The notes under the pieces were generated by a model. It ran no database searches and was not told where the DNA came from. It saw only the letters and a list, made by a program, of their open reading frames with translations. Made by a program: the position numbers and the translations under genes. Of a stretch of DNA of 35,280 nucleotides, positions 8,974 through 15,822 are shown one piece after another. Every line of letters starts with the position of its first letter. The first letter of the stretch is position 1. Source of the DNA: Chloroflexota bacterium (lineage in GTDB: Bacteria; Chloroflexota; Anaerolineae; Promineifilales; Promineifilaceae); the NCBI GenBank assembly GCA_022616275.1, contig JAKEFB010000011.1:1-35280 (forward strand), in the 5' to 3' direction.

Positions 8974-9045
<72 letters not shown>

Positions 9046-9228: not shown

Positions 9229-9257
9229 TTGACGCCTCTGGTTCACTTTGTTACACT
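9229..9257 (+). promoter_or_regulatory. Promoter of the cobalamin operon
   Basis: TTGACG (9229-9234), a 17-bp spacer, then TACACT (9252-9257): a good housekeeping-sigma promoter that would start the transcript at about 9264, some 20 nt before the riboswitch. Confidence 0.75.
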
Positions 9258-9282
9258 TTGTCCAATTACATAAAAGTGAACT

Positions 9283-9430
9283 TTGCCTGCGGTGTCCGTC
9301 GCCCCGGATGGCCGGACGTAATGGCGAAACTGGTGAGAGTCCAGTGCTGTCCCCGCAACTGTAAGGGTTTTTATTACCGCTCTGCGGTAGCCAAAGCCCA
9401 AGTCAGGTCGCCCACCTCAGGCAGGTTCCA
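9283..9430 (+). ncRNA. Cobalamin riboswitch (aptamer)
   Basis: The conserved core of the cobalamin aptamer is present: CTGGTGAGAGTCCAGTGCTG (9330-9349) followed by TCCCCGCAACTGTAAGGG, then the later AAAGCCCAAGTCAGGTCGCC block. TGCCTG (9284-9289) can pair with CAGGCA (9418-9423) to close the P1 stem. It binds adenosyl- or other cobalamins and shuts off downstream expression when the vitamin is plentiful. The downstream operon encodes B12 uptake and adenosylation, which fits. Confidence 0.92.
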
Positions 9431-9445
9431 GACCTTCGTGGGTAA

Positions 9446-9521
9446 GGGTTGGGAACATGCGACAACTGGACCAGGGCGGCCAGTGAACTTTCTCAACCCG
9501 GTGCAACAGCATCGGGTTTTT
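9446..9521 (+). terminator. Riboswitch-controlled terminator / antiterminator
   Basis: Terminator: AACCCGGTGC (9495-9504), loop AACA, GCATCGGGTT (9509-9518) with one G-U pair, then five T residues (9517-9521). A competing helix is possible between GGGTTGGGAA (9446-9455) and TTCTCAACCC (9490-9499), which would sequester the 5' arm and let transcription pass. This is the usual layout for transcriptional control: vitamin bound, terminator forms. Confidence 0.82.
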
Positions 9522-9548
9522 GCGTTCCTATCCCGGCCCACGTAAACG

Positions 9549-9614
9549 AACCTCCCGGAAGCTCAAGCGATAGCCGCCGGGCCGCCCGGCGCAATCGCCA
9601 GCCTCCGGGAGGTT
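9549..9614 (+). repeat. Large hairpin between riboswitch terminator and first gene
   Basis: A 15-bp stem with one G-U (9549-9563 with 9600-9614) encloses further pairing (GCGAT with ATCGC, and GCCGGG with CCCGGC). It lies after the riboswitch terminator and 19 bp before the first start codon; the ribosome site GGAGGG (9621-9626) is outside it. It lacks a T run, so it is not an obvious terminator. It may stabilise the processed mRNA or be another mobile hairpin. Confidence 0.6.
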
Positions 9615-9633
9615 AAGACCGGAGGGATAGATC

Positions 9634-10965
9634 ATGAATAAGCGTTTGACCTTTTGGCTGGTGGGGGCCGTGGCGGCCGGTGTGCTGGCTGCCTGGTTGT
9701 TGCTGTGGGGGACCGGCCTGGCCGCGGCCGCGCCCATGCGGGAAGCCGATACCGGTGACCTGGTTTTTACCGATCCTCAGCAAGCGGCCCAGGCGGCCGC
9801 TGCCTGGCTGGCCCAGACTCACCAGAACGACGACGGTGGTTATACCAATTTCAGCACCGGGGCCAACCAGGCCCCCTCGGACGTGGCTGGGACCTTGAAT
9901 GCCCTCCAGGCCCTGGCCGCCGCCGGCGCGGACACCGCCGCGCCCCTGGGCTACCTGGAGGCCAACCCAGACGCCGTGGCCGCCTATGCCGCCCAAAACG
10001 GTAGCACGGCCGGCAAAATCATCCTGGTTCTGGCCGCTGTCGGCGAAGACCCCCATGACTTTAGTGGTCACAATTACGCCATCAGCCTGACCAACCACCT
10101 CTCGCCCACCGGCCAATACAACGTCACCACCGCCTTTGACCAATCGCTGGCCGTCCAGGGGCTGGCGGCGGCTGGCGAGCCGGTCCCGGCCGAGGCGATT
10201 GAGTGGCTGGCCGGCCTCCAGGCCACCGAGGGTGAGTTAGCCGGTTCCTGGGACGACGGTTTTGGCACGGCCGGCAACCCGGATAGCACGGCCATGGCCG
10301 TGCTGGCGCTGCTGGCCGGCGGCCGGGCGGCCGGGGACGAGGCTGTCACCGCGGCCGTAGCCTTCCTGGCCCAGAGCCAGTTGCCCAGCGGCGGCTGGGC
10401 TTATAGCGGCGATTTTGGCGAAAACGCCAACAGCACCGCCCTCGTCATCCAGGCCCTGGACGCCCTGGGAGAAGATTTTTACTCGGTAGACGGCCCCTGG
10501 ACTCAAGGCGGCCGCTCGCCCCTGGTCGCTCTTCTCTCCTGGCAAAGCGAGAGCGGCGCGTTCCAGGCCGATTTTGGCAGCGGTCCGTTTGACGACTTTT
10601 TCGCGACCATCCAGGCTATCCCGGCTGTGGCCGCCGCCCCGGCCGATGCCCTGGCCGAACTGGAAGCGGCCGCGGCCACGGCCGACGCTTTAGCCCAGGC
10701 CACAGCTACCCCTGAAGCCACAGAGCCACCGCCCACGGAGACGACGGCCGCCCCGGCCGAGCCCGGCCCCACAGACGCACCCCCGGCCACCAACACGCCG
10801 GCCGCCACCACCACTGTCGCCGCTTCGCCCACGGCTGCCCCGGAACCCGCCCCCACCGGCCCGGCTCTCACAGGCGGCGATAGCCCACTACCGTACGTCC
10901 TGATCGGCCTGGCCGTCCTGCTAACCGGCGGCCTGATCCTTTGGCTTTACAGAGGCCGGCGATGA
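9634..10965 (+). CDS. Surface-anchored alpha/alpha-toroid protein, intrinsic-factor-like
   Basis: 443 residues. A signal peptide (LVGAVAAGVLAAWLLLWGTG, cleavage after ~35) precedes prenyltransferase/squalene-cyclase-type repeats from ~45 to 345. Each repeat pairs a helix with a Gly-rich turn: AAAWLAQTHQNDDGGYTNF, AIEWLAGLQATEGELAGSW, AVAFLAQSQLPSGGWAYSGD, LVALLSWQSESGAFQADFG. These form an alpha/alpha toroid, the fold of the large domain of intrinsic factor and transcobalamin. A Thr/Pro/Ala stalk (~355-415) and a C-terminal helix followed by RGRR anchor it outside the membrane. It is the first gene behind the cobalamin riboswitch and overlaps the next gene by 4 bp. I infer that it captures cobalamin at the cell surface; enzymatic activity is unlikely. 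Confidence 0.82.
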   Translation: MNKRLTFWLVGAVAAGVLAAWLLLWGTGLAAAAPMREADTGDLVFTDPQQAAQAAAAWLAQTHQNDDGGYTNFSTGANQAPSDVAGTLNALQALAAAGADTAAPLGYLEANPDAVAAYAAQNGSTAGKIILVLAAVGEDPHDFSGHNYAISLTNHLSPTGQYNVTTAFDQSLAVQGLAAAGEPVPAEAIEWLAGLQATEGELAGSWDDGFGTAGNPDSTAMAVLALLAGGRAAGDEAVTAAVAFLAQSQLPSGGWAYSGDFGENANSTALVIQALDALGEDFYSVDGPWTQGGRSPLVALLSWQSESGAFQADFGSGPFDDFFATIQAIPAVAAAPADALAELEAAAATADALAQATATPEATEPPPTETTAAPAEPGPTDAPPATNTPAATTTVAASPTAAPEPAPTGPALTGGDSPLPYVLIGLAVLLTGGLILWLYRGRR

Positions 10966-11582
10966 AGAGAGCGCTCTTGCTCCTCTTCATCGCCATAAAC
11001 CTGCCGGTCCGGTTGGCGGCGCAGGAGCCGAACCGGGTGGGAGTGGTGGTCCGGTTTGACGACGAGCACGTGGAGATGCGCTGCGTCGAATTCAGCGAAG
11101 CGCAGATTTCCGGCTACGAGGCGTTGGACCGCACCGGCCTGGTCGTCGAGGCAGACTCGCAAAGCCTGGGCGGAGCCGTGTGCCGGATTGGCGACACCGG
11201 CTGCCCGGCCGGCGACTGCTTTTGCCAGTGCCGGGGCGGCGGGGAATGTACCTACTGGTCGTATTGGCAGCGCGATGAAGAAGCGTGGAAGTATGCCCAG
11301 GTTGGGCCGACCACTTACCAGATCAGCCCCGGCAGTGTAGACGGCTGGTCGTGGGGGCCGGGCTCGGTGAACAGCGCCATTGCCCCGCCGGCCGTTTCCT
11401 TTGAGGAGGTGTGCGCCGCGCCGGTCGCCGGGGCTACAGCCAGCCCGCTGCCGGCCACCAACCCGGCCGGCGCTTCGGAGCCGGGCCCGGCCGGCTGGCT
11501 GCCCTATCTGGTTTTTGCCCTGATCCTAGCCGGCCTGGTTGTGGTCCTGGTCGCCCGGCGACGCCGGAGCGCCGCCGAATGA
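10962..11582 (+). CDS. Surface-anchored beta-domain protein (DUF4430-like), B12 capture partner
   Basis: 206 residues from ATG 10962, which overlaps the previous stop (ATGA). A signal peptide ends near LAAQ. The folded part has eight or more cysteines (CRIGDTGCPAGDCFCQCRGGGEC), then YWSYWQRDEEAWKYAQVG and YQISPGSVDGWSWGPG. The second stretch follows the DUF4430 pattern (W-x-Y-W, W-x-Y-x-x-x-G, G-D/S-V-x-x-W), the small beta domain that closes over cobalamin in intrinsic factor and transcobalamin. After an Ala/Pro linker comes a helix WLPYLVFALILAGLVVVLVA with an RRRR stop. It would thus face the outside next to the toroid protein. The similarity is read by eye and needs a structure prediction. 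Confidence 0.75.
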   Translation: MKRALLLLFIAINLPVRLAAQEPNRVGVVVRFDDEHVEMRCVEFSEAQISGYEALDRTGLVVEADSQSLGGAVCRIGDTGCPAGDCFCQCRGGGECTYWSYWQRDEEAWKYAQVGPTTYQISPGSVDGWSWGPGSVNSAIAPPAVSFEEVCAAPVAGATASPLPATNPAGASEPGPAGWLPYLVFALILAGLVVVLVARRRRSAAE

Positions 11583-12376
11583 AGCACCTGTTAACGGTGG
11601 CCATTTACGGCCTGAGCGCCCTGATTGGCCTGGTGGCTTTTGCCTACCCGTTCTTCTTGCCACAACTGGCCCAGGTGAGCGCAGCCACGGCCGACGAGTC
11701 TGGCTTCCGGCTGGCCGACGCCCCCTTGTTGACGGCCGTACTCCTGGCGCTGTGCCTGGTGGTCTTGCTGCTGGAGGTCCAGGGGCAGGCGATTAATGCC
11801 AAGATTGTGGCCGCCCTGGGGCTGCTGTCGGCTAGTACGGCCGTGCTGCGTCTTTTGGAAGCGGCTATCCCCGGCCCGGGCGGCTTTTCCTTGATGTTTG
11901 CCCCGATTATCCTGGCCGGCTACGTCTTTGGGGCGCGCTTTGGTTTTTTAATGGGCACGATGGCCCTGCTGGTCTCGGCCTTAATTACCGGGGGGGTGGG
12001 GCCGTGGCTGCCGTACCAGATGTTTACGGCCGGCTGGGTCGGGTTAACGGCCGGCTGGCTGCCCCACTTGCCGCCGGGCCGGCCGGCCCTGGCCATGCTG
12101 GCCGCCTTTGGCTTTGGCTGGGGGCTGTTGTTTGGGGCGATCATGAACCTGTTTTTCTGGCCCTTTGTCATCGGCGACAGCGCCACGAGCTGGCGGCCGG
12201 GCGCCGGGCTGGGCGAGGCGCTGGCCCGCTACGGCGCTTTCTACCTGGCCACGTCCCTGTGGTGGGACCTGGCCCGCTCGGCCGGCAACGTCGTCTTGCT
12301 CCTGGCCCTGGGCGAGCCGGTGATACGGGCCCTGGCTCGTTTCCGCTATCGGTTTCAATATGAGGTAATTGGGTAA
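11579..12376 (+). CDS. ECF transporter S component, probable cobalamin-specific
   Basis: 265 residues from ATG 11579 (4-bp overlap with the preceding gene). It is very hydrophobic, with about seven helices, e.g. YGLSALIGLVAFAYPFFLP, LLTAVLLALCLVVLLLEVQ, FSLMFAPIILAGYVFGARFG, FLMGTMALLVSALITGGVGP. The LAGYVFGARFGFLMG and GVGPW stretch is typical of S components, which bind the vitamin in the membrane. The neighbours EcfT and EcfA and the riboswitch point to cobalamin or a precursor such as cobinamide. Its stop codon and last residues (EVIG) lie inside a 24-bp palindrome, so the C-terminus was apparently changed by a repeat insertion. Confidence 0.85.
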   Translation: MKHLLTVAIYGLSALIGLVAFAYPFFLPQLAQVSAATADESGFRLADAPLLTAVLLALCLVVLLLEVQGQAINAKIVAALGLLSASTAVLRLLEAAIPGPGGFSLMFAPIILAGYVFGARFGFLMGTMALLVSALITGGVGPWLPYQMFTAGWVGLTAGWLPHLPPGRPALAMLAAFGFGWGLLFGAIMNLFFWPFVIGDSATSWRPGAGLGEALARYGAFYLATSLWWDLARSAGNVVLLLALGEPVIRALARFRYRFQYEVIG

Positions 12377-12401
12377 TTACCCAATTACTCAATTACCCAA
12401 G
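12365..12401. repeat. 24-bp perfect palindrome plus partial repeat (array C)
   Basis: 12365-12388 is a perfect palindrome built of GTAATT/GGGTAATT and their complement; 12389-12401 repeats half of it (TCAATTACCCAAG). It contains the stop codon of the S-component gene (TAA, 12374-12376) and fills the gap to the EcfT start. Period 7-8 nt and self-complementarity place it with the other spacer arrays. Confidence 0.75.
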
Positions 12402-12408
12402 AACTAAC

Positions 12409-13425
12409 GTGAACGAGAACCACCCCTCTTATAACCCCCGGGCCTGGCTGGTCTGGGTGCTGGCGGCCGCGCTGTTGGTGATGGTTGCCCGGAACCCGCT
12501 GTATACGGTCATCTTACTGCTGGTTTCCCAGGTGGCGCTGGCGACGCGGGCGGCCGGGCCAGGTGGCCGGAAGTGGCCATTCTGGTCCCTGGGCTTGTTC
12601 ATTGTCCTCGTCTCAGCCGTTTACAACAGCCTCTTCGTTCACGTGGGCCAGACCGTCTTACTACGGCTGCCGGCCGGACTGCCGCTGCTGGGCGGGCCAG
12701 TGACGTTGGAAGCGATGGTGGCCGGCGCAGCCAACGGCCTGGTTTTGCTGGCTTTGCTCTCCGTTTTTACGGCCCTGAACGCCCTGGTGCCGGCCGGGGA
12801 ATTGGTCCGGTTGATGCCGGCCGCGTTGCACGACCTGGGGCTGGTCATCCTGATTGCCCTGACCTACGTGCCGGAAACGGGCCGCCACCTGCAACGGATC
12901 CGCGAGGCCCAGGCCATCCGTGGCCACCGGCTGCGTGGGCTGCGCGACTGGCGGCCGGTGGTCATCCCCCTGCTGGTGGGCGGCCTGGAGCGCTCGCTAC
13001 AACTGGCGGAGGCGATGGTGGCCCGGGGTTACGGGGCCACGGCCGGCGCCCAACACAGCCTGGCCATCCGCCTGGTTTCCTTTCTTGGCTTGCTGGCGGC
13101 TTTCACGGGCTGGCTGCTGGCCTACTGGTTGGGCTGGCCCGGCTGGTTGTTGCTGGCCGCCGGAGCGGGCGTGTTGGCCGGGCTGCTGTGGGTGGCCGGC
13201 CGGCGGTCGCCGCGCAGCCAATACCGGCCGCTGCCCTGGCGGCCGCGCGATTCGCTCCTGGTGGCGGTAGCGTTGCTGCCCCTTCTGGTGGCCTTGCTGC
13301 CCTGGCCATTTGTCGCCCAGGGTACGTTGGCTTATTCTCCATACCCGCGAGTCCACATGCCGGCTTTTGACCCGTTCATTGGCCTGGCCCTGGCGGCGCT
13401 GGTCTTGCCGGCGTTATGGCTATGA
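12409..13425 (+). CDS. ecfT: ECF transporter transmembrane component EcfT
   Basis: 338 residues. Several N-terminal helices (AWLVWVLAAALLVMVA, LYTVILLLVSQVALAT) precede the conserved cytoplasmic coupling region: IREAQAIRGHRLRG and, further on, AEAMVARGYGAT, the two A-x-R-G-type motifs that dock onto the ATPase domains. A C-terminal set of helices extends beyond the shortest EcfT proteins. The start is GTG 12409, without a strong ribosome site, directly after the palindromic repeat. The 3' end overlaps EcfA by 10 bp. EcfT transmits ATP-driven movement to the S component. Confidence 0.92.
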   Translation: MNENHPSYNPRAWLVWVLAAALLVMVARNPLYTVILLLVSQVALATRAAGPGGRKWPFWSLGLFIVLVSAVYNSLFVHVGQTVLLRLPAGLPLLGGPVTLEAMVAGAANGLVLLALLSVFTALNALVPAGELVRLMPAALHDLGLVILIALTYVPETGRHLQRIREAQAIRGHRLRGLRDWRPVVIPLLVGGLERSLQLAEAMVARGYGATAGAQHSLAIRLVSFLGLLAAFTGWLLAYWLGWPGWLLLAAGAGVLAGLLWVAGRRSPRSQYRPLPWRPRDSLLVAVALLPLLVALLPWPFVAQGTLAYSPYPRVHMPAFDPFIGLALAALVLPALWL

Positions 13426-15086
13426 TTGCAATTGACCATTTGACCTTTACCTATCCTCATGCCCGGCGGCCGGCGCTGCACGACGTATCGCTGGCTATCC
13501 AACCGGGCGAATTTGTCCTGCTGGCCGGCCCTTCCGGGGCAGGCAAATCCACGCTGCTGCGCTGCCTGAACGGGCTGGCCCCTCATTTTAGCGGCGGGGC
13601 TATTGCCGGCCGGGTAGCGGTGGACGGCTGCGACCCCATCCAGGACGGCCCGCGGCCGCTTAGCCGGGTGGTCGGTTTTGTCTTCCAGGACCCGGAAGCC
13701 CAGGCAGTGTTGGAGACGGTAGAGGTGGAAATTGCCTTTGGCCTGGAGAACGCCGCCGTGCCCCCGGCCGAGATGCGGCTGCGGGTCGAGGAAGTGCTGA
13801 ACCTGTTAGAGCTGGCCGGGCTGCGCGACCGGCCGCTGGCCACACTATCGGGCGGCGAGCGGCAGCGGGTAGCCATTGCCTCGGCCCTGGCGCTGCGGCC
13901 GCGCATCCTGGCCCTGGACGAGCCGACCAGCCAGCTTGACCCGCAATCGGCCACGGACGTGCTACAGGCGTTGGTCCGGCTGAACGAGGAGCTGGGGCTG
14001 ACCATCTTGCTGGTGGAGCACCGGTTGGACAGGATCGTTCGTTACGCTGACCGGCTGGTCTATCTGGAGGGCGGCCGGGTGGTGGTGGATGGCCCGGTGC
14101 GGCAGGCGCTGGCCCAGGTCCCGCCGCTGCAAGCGCCGCCGCTGGCCCGGCTGGCCCTGGCCCTGGGCTGGCAGCCGCTGCCCTTGACGACGAAGGAGGG
14201 CCTGCGGTTTGTAGAGGGGACAGGGAACAGGGAACAGAGAACAGGGAATGGAGTTGGCCAGGCCAACTCGGAACAGGGAATGGAGTTGGCCAGGCCAACT
14301 CGGAACAGTCCTGTTCCCTTGGTAGAGGCGCGGGGGTTGCAGTTTAGTTATAACGGCCGGCCGGCCTTGCGGGGGGTGGAGCTGGAGGTCCGGCCGGGGG
14401 AAGCGGTGGCTTTGATGGGGCGCAATGGGTCGGGCAAGAGCACGTTGCTGAAGTGCCTGGTCGGGCTGTTGTCGCCGGCCAGGGGCGAGGTGACGATTAA
14501 TGGCCGGCCGGCGCGGCAGATGAGCCTGGTGGAGATTTGCCGGCAAGTGGCTTATCTGCCCCAGAACCCGGACGACCTGCTCTTTGCCGATTCGGTGCTG
14601 GAGGAGTTGCAGGTGACGCTGCGCAACCACGGGCTGGCCGAGGGCGACCTGGCCTTGCCGCCGGCCGGGCTGCTGGCCGAGCTGGGGCTGTCCGGCCTGG
14701 AAGAAGCCTATCCCCGCGACCTGTCGGTGGGCCAGCGGCAGCGGGTGGCGCTGGGTTCGCTGCTGGTCACCGCCCCCCGGCTGCTGCTGCTGGACGAGCC
14801 GACGCGGGGGCTGGATTTTGCGGCCAAGCGGCGGCTGATCACCTTGTGGCGGCGCTGGCAGGCGGCCGGGATGGGGCTATTATTAGTGACCCACGACGTG
14901 GAGATGGCCGCCCGCGTCGCTGACCGGGTCATCGTCTTGAGCCAGGGCGAAATCATTGCCGCCGGCCCGGCGGCCGGGGTGCTGAACGCCTCGCCGCTCT
15001 TCGCCCCTCAGGTAGCCCGCCTCTTCCCCGACCGGGGCTGGCTCACCGTCGAGGATGCCCTGGCCGGGCTGGGTGTAGGGGTGTAG
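13416..15086 (+). CDS. ecfA: EcfA double ATPase (two fused ABC domains) with in-frame repeat
   Basis: 556 residues. Domain 1 (~1-240): Walker A LAGPSGAGKSTLL, signature LSGGERQRVAIASALAL, Walker B ILALDEPTSQLDP, H-loop VEHRLD. Domain 2 (~300-545): LMGRNGSGKSTLL, signature LSVGQRQRVALGSLL (second Gly changed to Val), LLLLDEPTRGLDF, VTHDVEMAARV. Such fusions replace the EcfA1/EcfA2 heterodimer. Residues ~267-302, between the domains, are encoded by a hairpin repeat flanked by GTAGAGG on both sides, a total added length of 111 bp, so the frame is kept. ATG 13416 lies in the EcfT 3' end; ATG 13422 is an alternative. Confidence 0.93.
   Translation: MAMIAIDHLTFTYPHARRPALHDVSLAIQPGEFVLLAGPSGAGKSTLLRCLNGLAPHFSGGAIAGRVAVDGCDPIQDGPRPLSRVVGFVFQDPEAQAVLETVEVEIAFGLENAAVPPAEMRLRVEEVLNLLELAGLRDRPLATLSGGERQRVAIASALALRPRILALDEPTSQLDPQSATDVLQALVRLNEELGLTILLVEHRLDRIVRYADRLVYLEGGRVVVDGPVRQALAQVPPLQAPPLARLALALGWQPLPLTTKEGLRFVEGTGNREQRTGNGVGQANSEQGMELARPTRNSPVPLVEARGLQFSYNGRPALRGVELEVRPGEAVALMGRNGSGKSTLLKCLVGLLSPARGEVTINGRPARQMSLVEICRQVAYLPQNPDDLLFADSVLEELQVTLRNHGLAEGDLALPPAGLLAELGLSGLEEAYPRDLSVGQRQRVALGSLLVTAPRLLLLDEPTRGLDFAAKRRLITLWRRWQAAGMGLLLVTHDVEMAARVADRVIVLSQGEIIAAGPAAGVLNASPLFAPQVARLFPDRGWLTVEDALAGLGVGV
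14211..14328. mobile_element. Hairpin repeat inserted in frame in ecfA, with 7-bp direct flanks
   Basis: GTAGAGG occurs at 14211-14217 and 14322-14328, like a target site duplication. Inside: GGAACAG-type heptamers, then two copies of a 32-bp unit, each with the hairpin GAGTTGGCC-A-GGCCAACTC (14251-14269 and 14283-14301). The outer ends are complementary, AGGGAACAG (14222-14230) with CTGTTCCCT (14311-14319). Insert plus one flank is 111 bp, 37 codons. It is built like the spacer arrays but sits inside a gene. Confidence 0.75.
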
Positions 15087-15250
15087 GGCGACCTTCGGTC
15101 GCTTGGTGGTTGTGTAGCTGTGTGGTTGTGTGGAAAGGCGAGGAAGGAGTGAGCCAGGGGCAACTATCCAGGTCTGCCAGTGAACGAGTGGCCGGCCGGT
15201 AAGTCACTTGCCCACTTGCCTACTCAGTCCTCAGCACTCAGTCCTATTGG
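15070..15250. repeat. 7-nt-period repeat spacer (array E) between ecfA and pduO
   Basis: The stretch begins with GGTGTAG units at the ecfA stop, contains the small hairpin GCGACC-TTC-GGTCGC (15088-15102), then TTGTGTAG/CTGTGTGG/TTGTGTGG words. It ends with ACTTGCC/CACTTGC and ACTCAGTCCTCAGCACTCAG words. No gene is seen. The GC-rich hairpin followed by TTGGTGGTTGTG is a weak terminator candidate. GGAG at 15249-15252 precedes the adenosyltransferase start. Confidence 0.65.
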
Positions 15251-15258
15251 AGTTAGAA

Positions 15259-15822
15259 ATGCCGCGATTGACGAAGATTTATACGAGGAAGGGGGATGAT
15301 GGGACGACGGCGCTGGGCAGCCGGACGCGGGTGGCCAAGGACTCGCCGCGCGTGGCGGCTTATGGCACGGTAGACGAGCTGAACTCGGCCATTGGCCTGG
15401 CGCTGGCCGGGGGGTTGGCGCCGCGCCTGGCCCAGGTGTTGCCGGTGGTTCAGAATGAGCTGTTTCACCTGGGGTCGGACCTGTGCTTTACCGAGGAGGA
15501 CAAGAAGAGCTACCAGATACCGCAGGTGGAGGCCCGCCACGTGGCGGCGCTGGAGGCGCTGATGGACGAGCTGACGGCCGTCGTCGGGCCGTTGGAGAAC
15601 TTCATTTTGCCGGGCGGCTCGCCGGGCGCGGCCCGATTACACGTTGCCCGAACGGTCTGCCGCCGCGCCGAGCGGGAGGTCGTCACCCTGGCCCGGACGG
15701 AAGCAGTGGGGCCATACGTCCTGCCCTACCTCAACCGCCTCTCCGACGCCCTCTTTGTCATGGCCCGCTATGAGAACCACGAGAGGGGAACGGCCGAGCC
15801 GCTGTGGGATTCGCTGGCGTGA
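15259..15822 (+). CDS. pduO: ATP:cob(I)alamin adenosyltransferase, PduO-type
   Basis: 187 residues from ATG 15259, which fits the family better than an upstream ATG at 15208 whose codons come from the repeat spacer. The N-terminal ATP loop [70 protein letters not shown] and [17 protein letters not shown] are all hallmark segments. The enzyme transfers the adenosyl group of ATP to cob(I)alamin to make coenzyme B12. Its place after the B12 transporter suggests that imported corrinoid is adenosylated at once. Its last ~25 bp and 3' flank are duplicated at 17963-18030. Confidence 0.95.

Follow-up and report, generated by a model that had tools for sequence, protein, structure and literature searches.

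Can two adjacent bacterial genes encode, as separate chains, the architecture that intrinsic factor and transcobalamin build from an alpha/alpha toroid and a small beta domain around cobalamin? The question is raised by positions 9,634 to 11,582 of a 35,280-nucleotide stretch of Chloroflexota DNA (assembly GCA_022616275.1, contig JAKEFB010000011.1), referred to here, at its full length, as the window. An earlier note, made from the letters alone, had read gene 1 as a toroid of prenyltransferase-type repeats and gene 2 as the beta domain, and had proposed that the two could close over vitamin B12 (cobalamin). That two adjacent genes carry this architecture was confirmed by a toroid profile, by the predicted fold of the beta protein and by co-occurrence in relatives. 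The pair lies in one compact plus-strand operon (9229-15822) with a riboswitch, the toroid gene, the beta gene, the S, T and double-ATPase components of an energy-coupling factor (ECF) transporter, and PduO. We consider it probable that the operon is repressed by B12 and serves to scavenge corrinoids: two tethered chains would trap cobalamin and feed a CbrT-like ECF transporter, with PduO adenosylating the import. The features of the operon are:

9229-9257, plus strand: promoter-like site TTGACG-17-TACACT, immediately 5' of the riboswitch, a consensus match only
9273-9433, plus strand: cobalamin riboswitch aptamer RF00174, 60.6 bits against a gathering threshold of 31.5
9495-9518, plus strand: intrinsic-terminator-like hairpin with a T run, after the riboswitch and before gene 1; likely the expression platform
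9634-10965, plus strand: gene 1, alpha chain of 443 amino acids (aa), an alpha/alpha toroid predicted to be secreted, stalked and C-terminally anchored
10962-11582, plus strand: gene 2, beta chain, predicted to be secreted and C-terminally anchored (listed open reading frame 10941-11582)
11022-11420, plus strand: transcobalamin-type beta-grasp domain of gene 2, with 8 cysteines, from alignment, fold prediction and structure search
11579-12376, plus strand: ECF transporter S component, CbrT-like by profile kinship (open reading frame listed from 11411)
12409-13425, plus strand: ECF transporter T component (CbiQ/EcfT), by Pfam profile
13416-15086, plus strand: ECF transporter double ATPase with two CbiO/EcfA halves, by Pfam and NCBIfam profiles
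15208-15822, plus strand: PduO-type cob(I)alamin adenosyltransferase (PF01923, 204.1 bits; TIGR00636, 198.5 bits, cutoff 108.45)

The listed reading frame of gene 2 starts at TTG 10941; the true start is probably ATG 10962, because ATGA overlaps join the stop of gene 1 to this ATG (10962) and the stop of gene 2 to the ATG of the S component (11579). After a signal-like N-terminus and the beta domain, the protein continues with a stalk rich in Pro/Ala and then, at the C-terminal side, a hydrophobic segment followed by four arginines. The W-x-Y-W and G-x-V-D-G-W patterns, on which the earlier note had based its assignment, are both present; W79, W89 and W111 are invariant in 31/31 aligned domains, and G50, G60 and G95 are invariant in beta-domain alignment A1. 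The predicted order of strands (E) and helix (H) is E4-11, E17-24, H31-36, E42-47, E50-56, E77-85, E88-91 and E106-113. The fold of the second protein had been named in advance as a test, and the top structural matches of its model are the beta domains of transcobalamin, intrinsic factor and haptocorrin, with a large gap to the others listed. The model thus predicts a beta-grasp fold with a two-strand hairpin after the helix, the feature that marks the transcobalamin-like clade of the soluble-ligand-binding beta-grasp (SLBB) superfamily; the hairpin, E42-47/E50-56, was assigned by strand order, not by superposition. The superfamily also has two glycines conserved at set positions, for which the invariant G50, G60 and G95 are candidates. 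The context of that clade is matched as well, in that the protein is predicted to be secreted and is encoded beside a toroid and CbiO/CbiQ in a host that, judged by CbiC alone, lacks B12 synthesis. The fold was taken from alignment A8: in the mixed alignments A4, A7 and A9 (printed) and A10 and A11 (judged from summaries) beta rows had been wrongly placed against the toroid, and in A12 these rows were shifted at their end. Two candidate matches of gene 2 were set aside, namely the sole match of the beta profile in a sequence search of the Protein Data Bank (PDB), an irrelevant antibody chain (E 1.8), and CcmD (E 0.017), which covers only the C-terminal membrane segment and lies below cutoff.

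The cysteine number is even in 30/31 beta domains, the exception being truncated by a contig end, and for this reason disulfides are the simpler reading of these residues. The same count disfavours cobalt ligation by a conserved cysteine, of the kind seen in BtuM (PMC6072759). Among beta proteins without a fused toroid, a signal-like N-terminus was found in 60/60 and a C-terminal hydrophobic segment in 51/60, by a simple hydropathy threshold, and on these grounds the outer face of the membrane is the probable site of the binders. The earlier proposal that each chain has its own signal peptide, stalk and anchor is upheld by prediction for gene 2 and, in stalk and anchor, for gene 1, whose A/T/P-rich stalk (residues 346-415) is followed by a hydrophobic segment and R/K; for toroid genes the signal check was uninformative, since the toroid profile itself spans the signal region. 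At L080, L081 and L093, where cobalamin riboswitch and ECF genes occur with no toroid nearby, the beta proteins have a lipobox-like motif (VAGC, ITAC and VTAC), and second beta paralogues at L052 (8523-9125), L054 (8154-8714) and L059 (7189-7857) end, by eye, in tails that we take to be PEP-CTERM-like.

The grouping of the genes was followed in a near-relative panel of 60 genomes, the organism's own included. Beta was found in 26 of them, the S component in 25 and the toroid in 25; because all three occur together in 24/60 and are all absent in 34/60, the grouping is not due to chance. The two genomes outside these classes are G043, with no S component and a beta gene that runs into a contig end, and G011, with no toroid and its beta gene at a contig start. 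A phylum-wide profile search, in which at most 16 candidates were scored per genome, found beta domains in at least 62 of 251 genomes.

Gene arrangements were then read from 27 near-relative neighbourhoods, 15 named loci (related operons in Chloroflexi/Anaerolineae metagenome-assembled genomes), 20 wider loci from 20 of the 62 beta genomes and three actinobacterial plasmids. Together with the window, and minus nine repeated named loci and L057 (toroid only), these make 56 loci, whose classes were counted by hand; L034 and L039 share one genome. Toroid and beta are separate genes in 40/56. Beta-toroid fusions were found in 6/56 (L050, L056, L065, L082, L098 and L100), and a toroid-toroid-beta single chain, the animal order, in 2/56 (L083 and L084). 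The beta gene has no same-direction toroid beside it in 8/56: in L033 and L036 a contig edge is near, L044 and L049 have the toroid on another contig of the same genome, L099 has it on the opposite strand, and L080, L081 and L093 have none nearby. Searches of the whole genomes gave no toroid for L081 or L093, and nothing beyond weak toroid-like matches for L080. Two beta domains occur in 12/56 loci. The model of a natural fusion, L058, contains both domains (pLDDT 83.1, pTM 0.71); its VIA-align search returned no transcobalamin among the 50 matches listed, a list filled by the toroid half.

Several unusual proteins were seen among these loci. At L056 (10625-12817, plus strand) the second beta protein joins a beta domain, a stalk and an ECF S component in one 730-aa frame, and at L082 (10434-14417, plus strand) ECF S, T and double-ATPase parts share one 1327-aa reading frame. 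L060 (943-3696, plus strand) has three tandem toroid domains in one protein, and a tandem pair of toroids occurs at 12 further split loci. L097 (minus strand, match 1501-1686), from a 0.9-Mb genome of the same phylum, encodes a 658-aa protein in which toroid-like repeats, seen by eye, precede a DUF4430 domain over cutoff.

For gene 1, the reading as a prenyltransferase-type toroid held up: it scores over the Pfam cutoff for SQHop_cyclase_C (29.1 bits vs 26.1), and Prenyltrans and SQHop_cyclase_N score under theirs. Several results limit the comparison with the animal proteins. In both sequence and fold the toroid stands nearer to squalene-hopene cyclases, and the animal alpha domain is more distant: a sequence search of the PDB gave no transcobalamin among 53 matches at E<=0.01, and Foldseek placed transcobalamin at ranks 45 and 50, behind squalene-hopene cyclases; glycosidases and epimerases are likewise near in fold. 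The DUF4430 profile search that the earlier note had suggested came back negative. DUF4430 (PF14478) matched 0/31 beta domains at E<=10 and nothing in the organism's own genome at E<=0.001, and the eukaryotic cobalamin-binding protein family PF01122 had no match to the window toroid at E<=1, a difference from the animal cobalamin binders. In relatives PF01122 matches 9/22 toroid rows at E<=1; when ten rows were examined singly, six matched at E<=0.05, and L053 alone exceeded the cutoff (27.1 vs 25). A profile-profile comparison of the beta domain with four Chloroflexota DUF4430 domains gave a probability of 59 and E 9.1e-5 in matching register, against values of 0.05, 0.82 and 0.23 for unrelated pairs. 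Support for the beta fold comes from fold prediction and structure search, not from the DUF4430 profile, and the intrinsic factor/transcobalamin reading is supported by the beta fold and the ligand context, within limits set by the toroid and the missing DUF4430 match. The D-x-D-D motif is the catalytic acid motif of class II (squalene-hopene type) cyclases. The pattern D.DD[TSN] is absent from 22/22 toroid rows, in a search run with no positive control, and gene 1 is therefore unlikely to be a terpene cyclase.

Four lines support cobalamin as the ligand: the cobalamin riboswitch, the CbrT-like S component, PduO, and a host genome in which no CbiC was found and which has many B12-binding domains. 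The hairpin at 9495-9518 is likely the expression platform of the riboswitch, judged by its position rather than by the number of such sites, since nine terminator-like sites were found in the region vs 6.5 expected. No second cobalamin riboswitch was found in the genome among the 150 of 635 first-look candidates that were scored. Over the window and the near-relative, wider and plasmid loci, the named loci standing apart, a cobalamin riboswitch lies above threshold at 38/51 (the window, 19/27 near-relative loci, 16/20 wider loci and 2/3 plasmids). The one at L091 is RF01482, of the same clan as RF00174, and that at L098 faces a divergent toroid gene. At eight near-relative loci none was found. 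In L033, L036 and L037 the contig stops shortly before the known part of the operon; in L044 and L049 the toroid gene is not beside beta; and at L034, L038 and L039 the upstream sequence is present and gave no cobalamin riboswitch match. Nor was one found at four of the 20 wider loci (L074, L077, L082 and L089). Immediately upstream of the window operon, on the opposite strand, lies a tRNA gene (8974-9045, minus strand), and L031, L032, L043, L045 and L048 likewise have an opposite-strand tRNA gene that precedes the riboswitch.

At E<=1 the S-component profile matched one PDB chain, 6fnp_A (E 2.4e-8). 6FNP is ECF-CbrT, a cobalamin transporter (PMC5997447), and its chain A, at 182 residues, has the length expected of the S component; by this profile match the window protein appears akin to CbrT. 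CbiC, an enzyme of corrin-ring biosynthesis, was not found in the organism's own genome and was found in 1/60 genomes of the panel, yet the own genome has 13 matches to B12-binding domains, 12 of them above cutoff. On this contrast, with CbiC as the single biosynthesis gene considered, the organism very likely depends on imported corrinoid.

From the computed gene order, riboswitch aptamer, predicted folds, S-component kinship, co-occurrence and natural fusions, we infer the following course of events. When B12 is scarce, the riboswitch would let transcription through the terminator, and by the same token B12 would repress the operon. The toroid and the beta-grasp protein would be exported, each held at the outer surface of the membrane by its stalk and C-terminal helix. 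The alpha and beta chains would trap cobalamin between them, like the two domains of intrinsic factor and transcobalamin, and hand it to the CbrT-like S component; the ECF transporter would then import it using ATP, and PduO would adenosylate it inside the cell. Two separate chains can plausibly do the trapping, by analogy, because the alpha and beta domains of human transcobalamin, produced apart, come together on cobalamin (PMC5599065) and because rat transcobalamin has a small alpha/beta interface, of about 530 or 440 square Å depending on the ligand (PMC11107200). The beta-toroid fusions, together with the beta-S fusion, suggest that beta is placed between toroid and transporter. More tentatively, the arrangement may act as a two-chain clamp, in which the tethered proteins meet only around B12, so that the vitamin itself would glue the receptor together and the receptor would dock on S. 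The split state, as the commonest arrangement, would on this tentative proposal perhaps be older than the animal single chain.

An alternative is that no such closure takes place, and that beta alone is a membrane-proximal B12 receptor feeding S, the toroid being an accessory or a scavenger in its own right that does not close over the B12 molecule bound by beta. G137 and G086 have beta and ECF genes and gave no toroid match (G193 gave weak toroid-like matches only), beta is fused directly to S in L056, and the human transcobalamin beta domain has been solved alone with cyanocobalamin (5np4; PMC5599065). The toroid is nevertheless also present in 25 of the 26 beta genomes, the 26th being the one with its beta gene at a contig start, and fusions of beta and toroid, in either order, occur in 8/56 loci; co-occurrence and fusions together argue that the two cooperate on one ligand, and we hold this alternative to be unlikely. 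Operons with beta and without toroid leave room for a form in which beta does the essential carrying and the toroid improves on it. A second alternative, that the true ligand is another corrinoid or a precursor (cobinamide or pseudo-B12) rather than cobalamin itself, seems very improbable. ECF-CbrT also takes cobinamide (PMC5997447), and at L074 (7048-8510, minus strand) CobS-like and CobC-like frames, seen by eye with no profile test, lie between the T and beta genes; against this, PduO and a cobalamin riboswitch are part of the window operon, and no nucleotide-loop gene was found among the nine window proteins scanned. As transcobalamin also binds cobinamide (PMC5599065), this alternative is in any case a shade of the two-chain cobalamin trap that we favour. 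That the toroid is an enzyme (a terpene cyclase or glycosidase-like) merely beside a B12 operon, and beta an unrelated beta-grasp surface protein, is barely credible: the profile and fold neighbours named above speak for it, and the missing acid motif, the co-inheritance and natural fusion with beta and the cobalamin riboswitch in front speak against it.

Read as a two-chain trap for cobalamin, the locus would offer a complete candidate system of switch, two surface binders, importer and adenosyltransferase, in a field, cobalamin uptake by prokaryotic auxotrophs, where knowledge was called scarce in 2018 (PMC5997447). It extends the predicted intrinsic factor/transcobalamin beta fold to a bacterial branch missed by the DUF4430 profile. 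The natural split mirrors the laboratory assembly of the separate human domains on cobalamin (PMC5599065), and fusions in both orders make the possible origin of the animal single chain open to study.

Among known systems, intrinsic factor, transcobalamin and haptocorrin of animals are each one soluble chain, alpha then beta, in contrast to the two tethered chains predicted here. ECF-CbrT of Lactobacillus delbrueckii resembles the window operon in its related S component, its ECF module and the PduO in its cluster; no extracytoplasmic binding proteins are described for it in the accessible text (PMC5997447), whereas here two surface proteins share the operon. Genes 1 and 2 are partial matches to the NCBIfam families SCO2321 (85.9 bits, family cutoff 300) and SCO2322 (43.1 bits, cutoff 85), both under cutoff and both named after Streptomyces loci. 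The window beta domain also led to Streptomyces plasmids with similar neighbourhoods, whose genes may belong to SCO2321/SCO2322; in Streptomyces sp. SAT1 the order is cobalamin riboswitch, beta-toroid-toroid, beta, T, A, S and metE. In L098 and L100, two of these plasmids, a beta domain is part of the operon's toroid gene and is missing from a second toroid gene, which is divergent. No functional study of SCO2321/SCO2322 proteins or of a bacterial toroid and beta pair was seen among the literature matches listed (titles and abstract starts, with few subscription journals and preprints). The closest precedent is the transcobalamin-like clade, which Burroughs et al. defined in bacteria in 2007 and for which they proposed B12 scavenging (PMC1796856). 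Its members are found in animals, low-GC Gram-positives, planctomycetes and some euryarchaea; they have toroid fusions in either order, CbiO/CbiQ neighbours, in some operons a second paralogous beta protein, and hosts usually without key B12 synthesis enzymes (PMC1796856). The word start Chloroflex has 0 occurrences in the text of that paper, and no separate toroid gene is described there for the clade in the parts accessible. The window pair shares with the clade the beta-grasp fold with a hairpin after the helix, the predicted secretion and surface anchoring, the toroid partner, the operons with CbiO and CbiQ and a host that probably lacks B12 synthesis (PMC1796856). It differs in that fusion is common in the clade and toroid and beta are here mostly separate genes, and in a beta domain that is cysteine rich, missed by DUF4430 and hosted by Chloroflexota with Streptomyces relatives. 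A bacterial pair of toroid and beta was already known (PMC1796856), and the Chloroflexota operon adds a split form to it.
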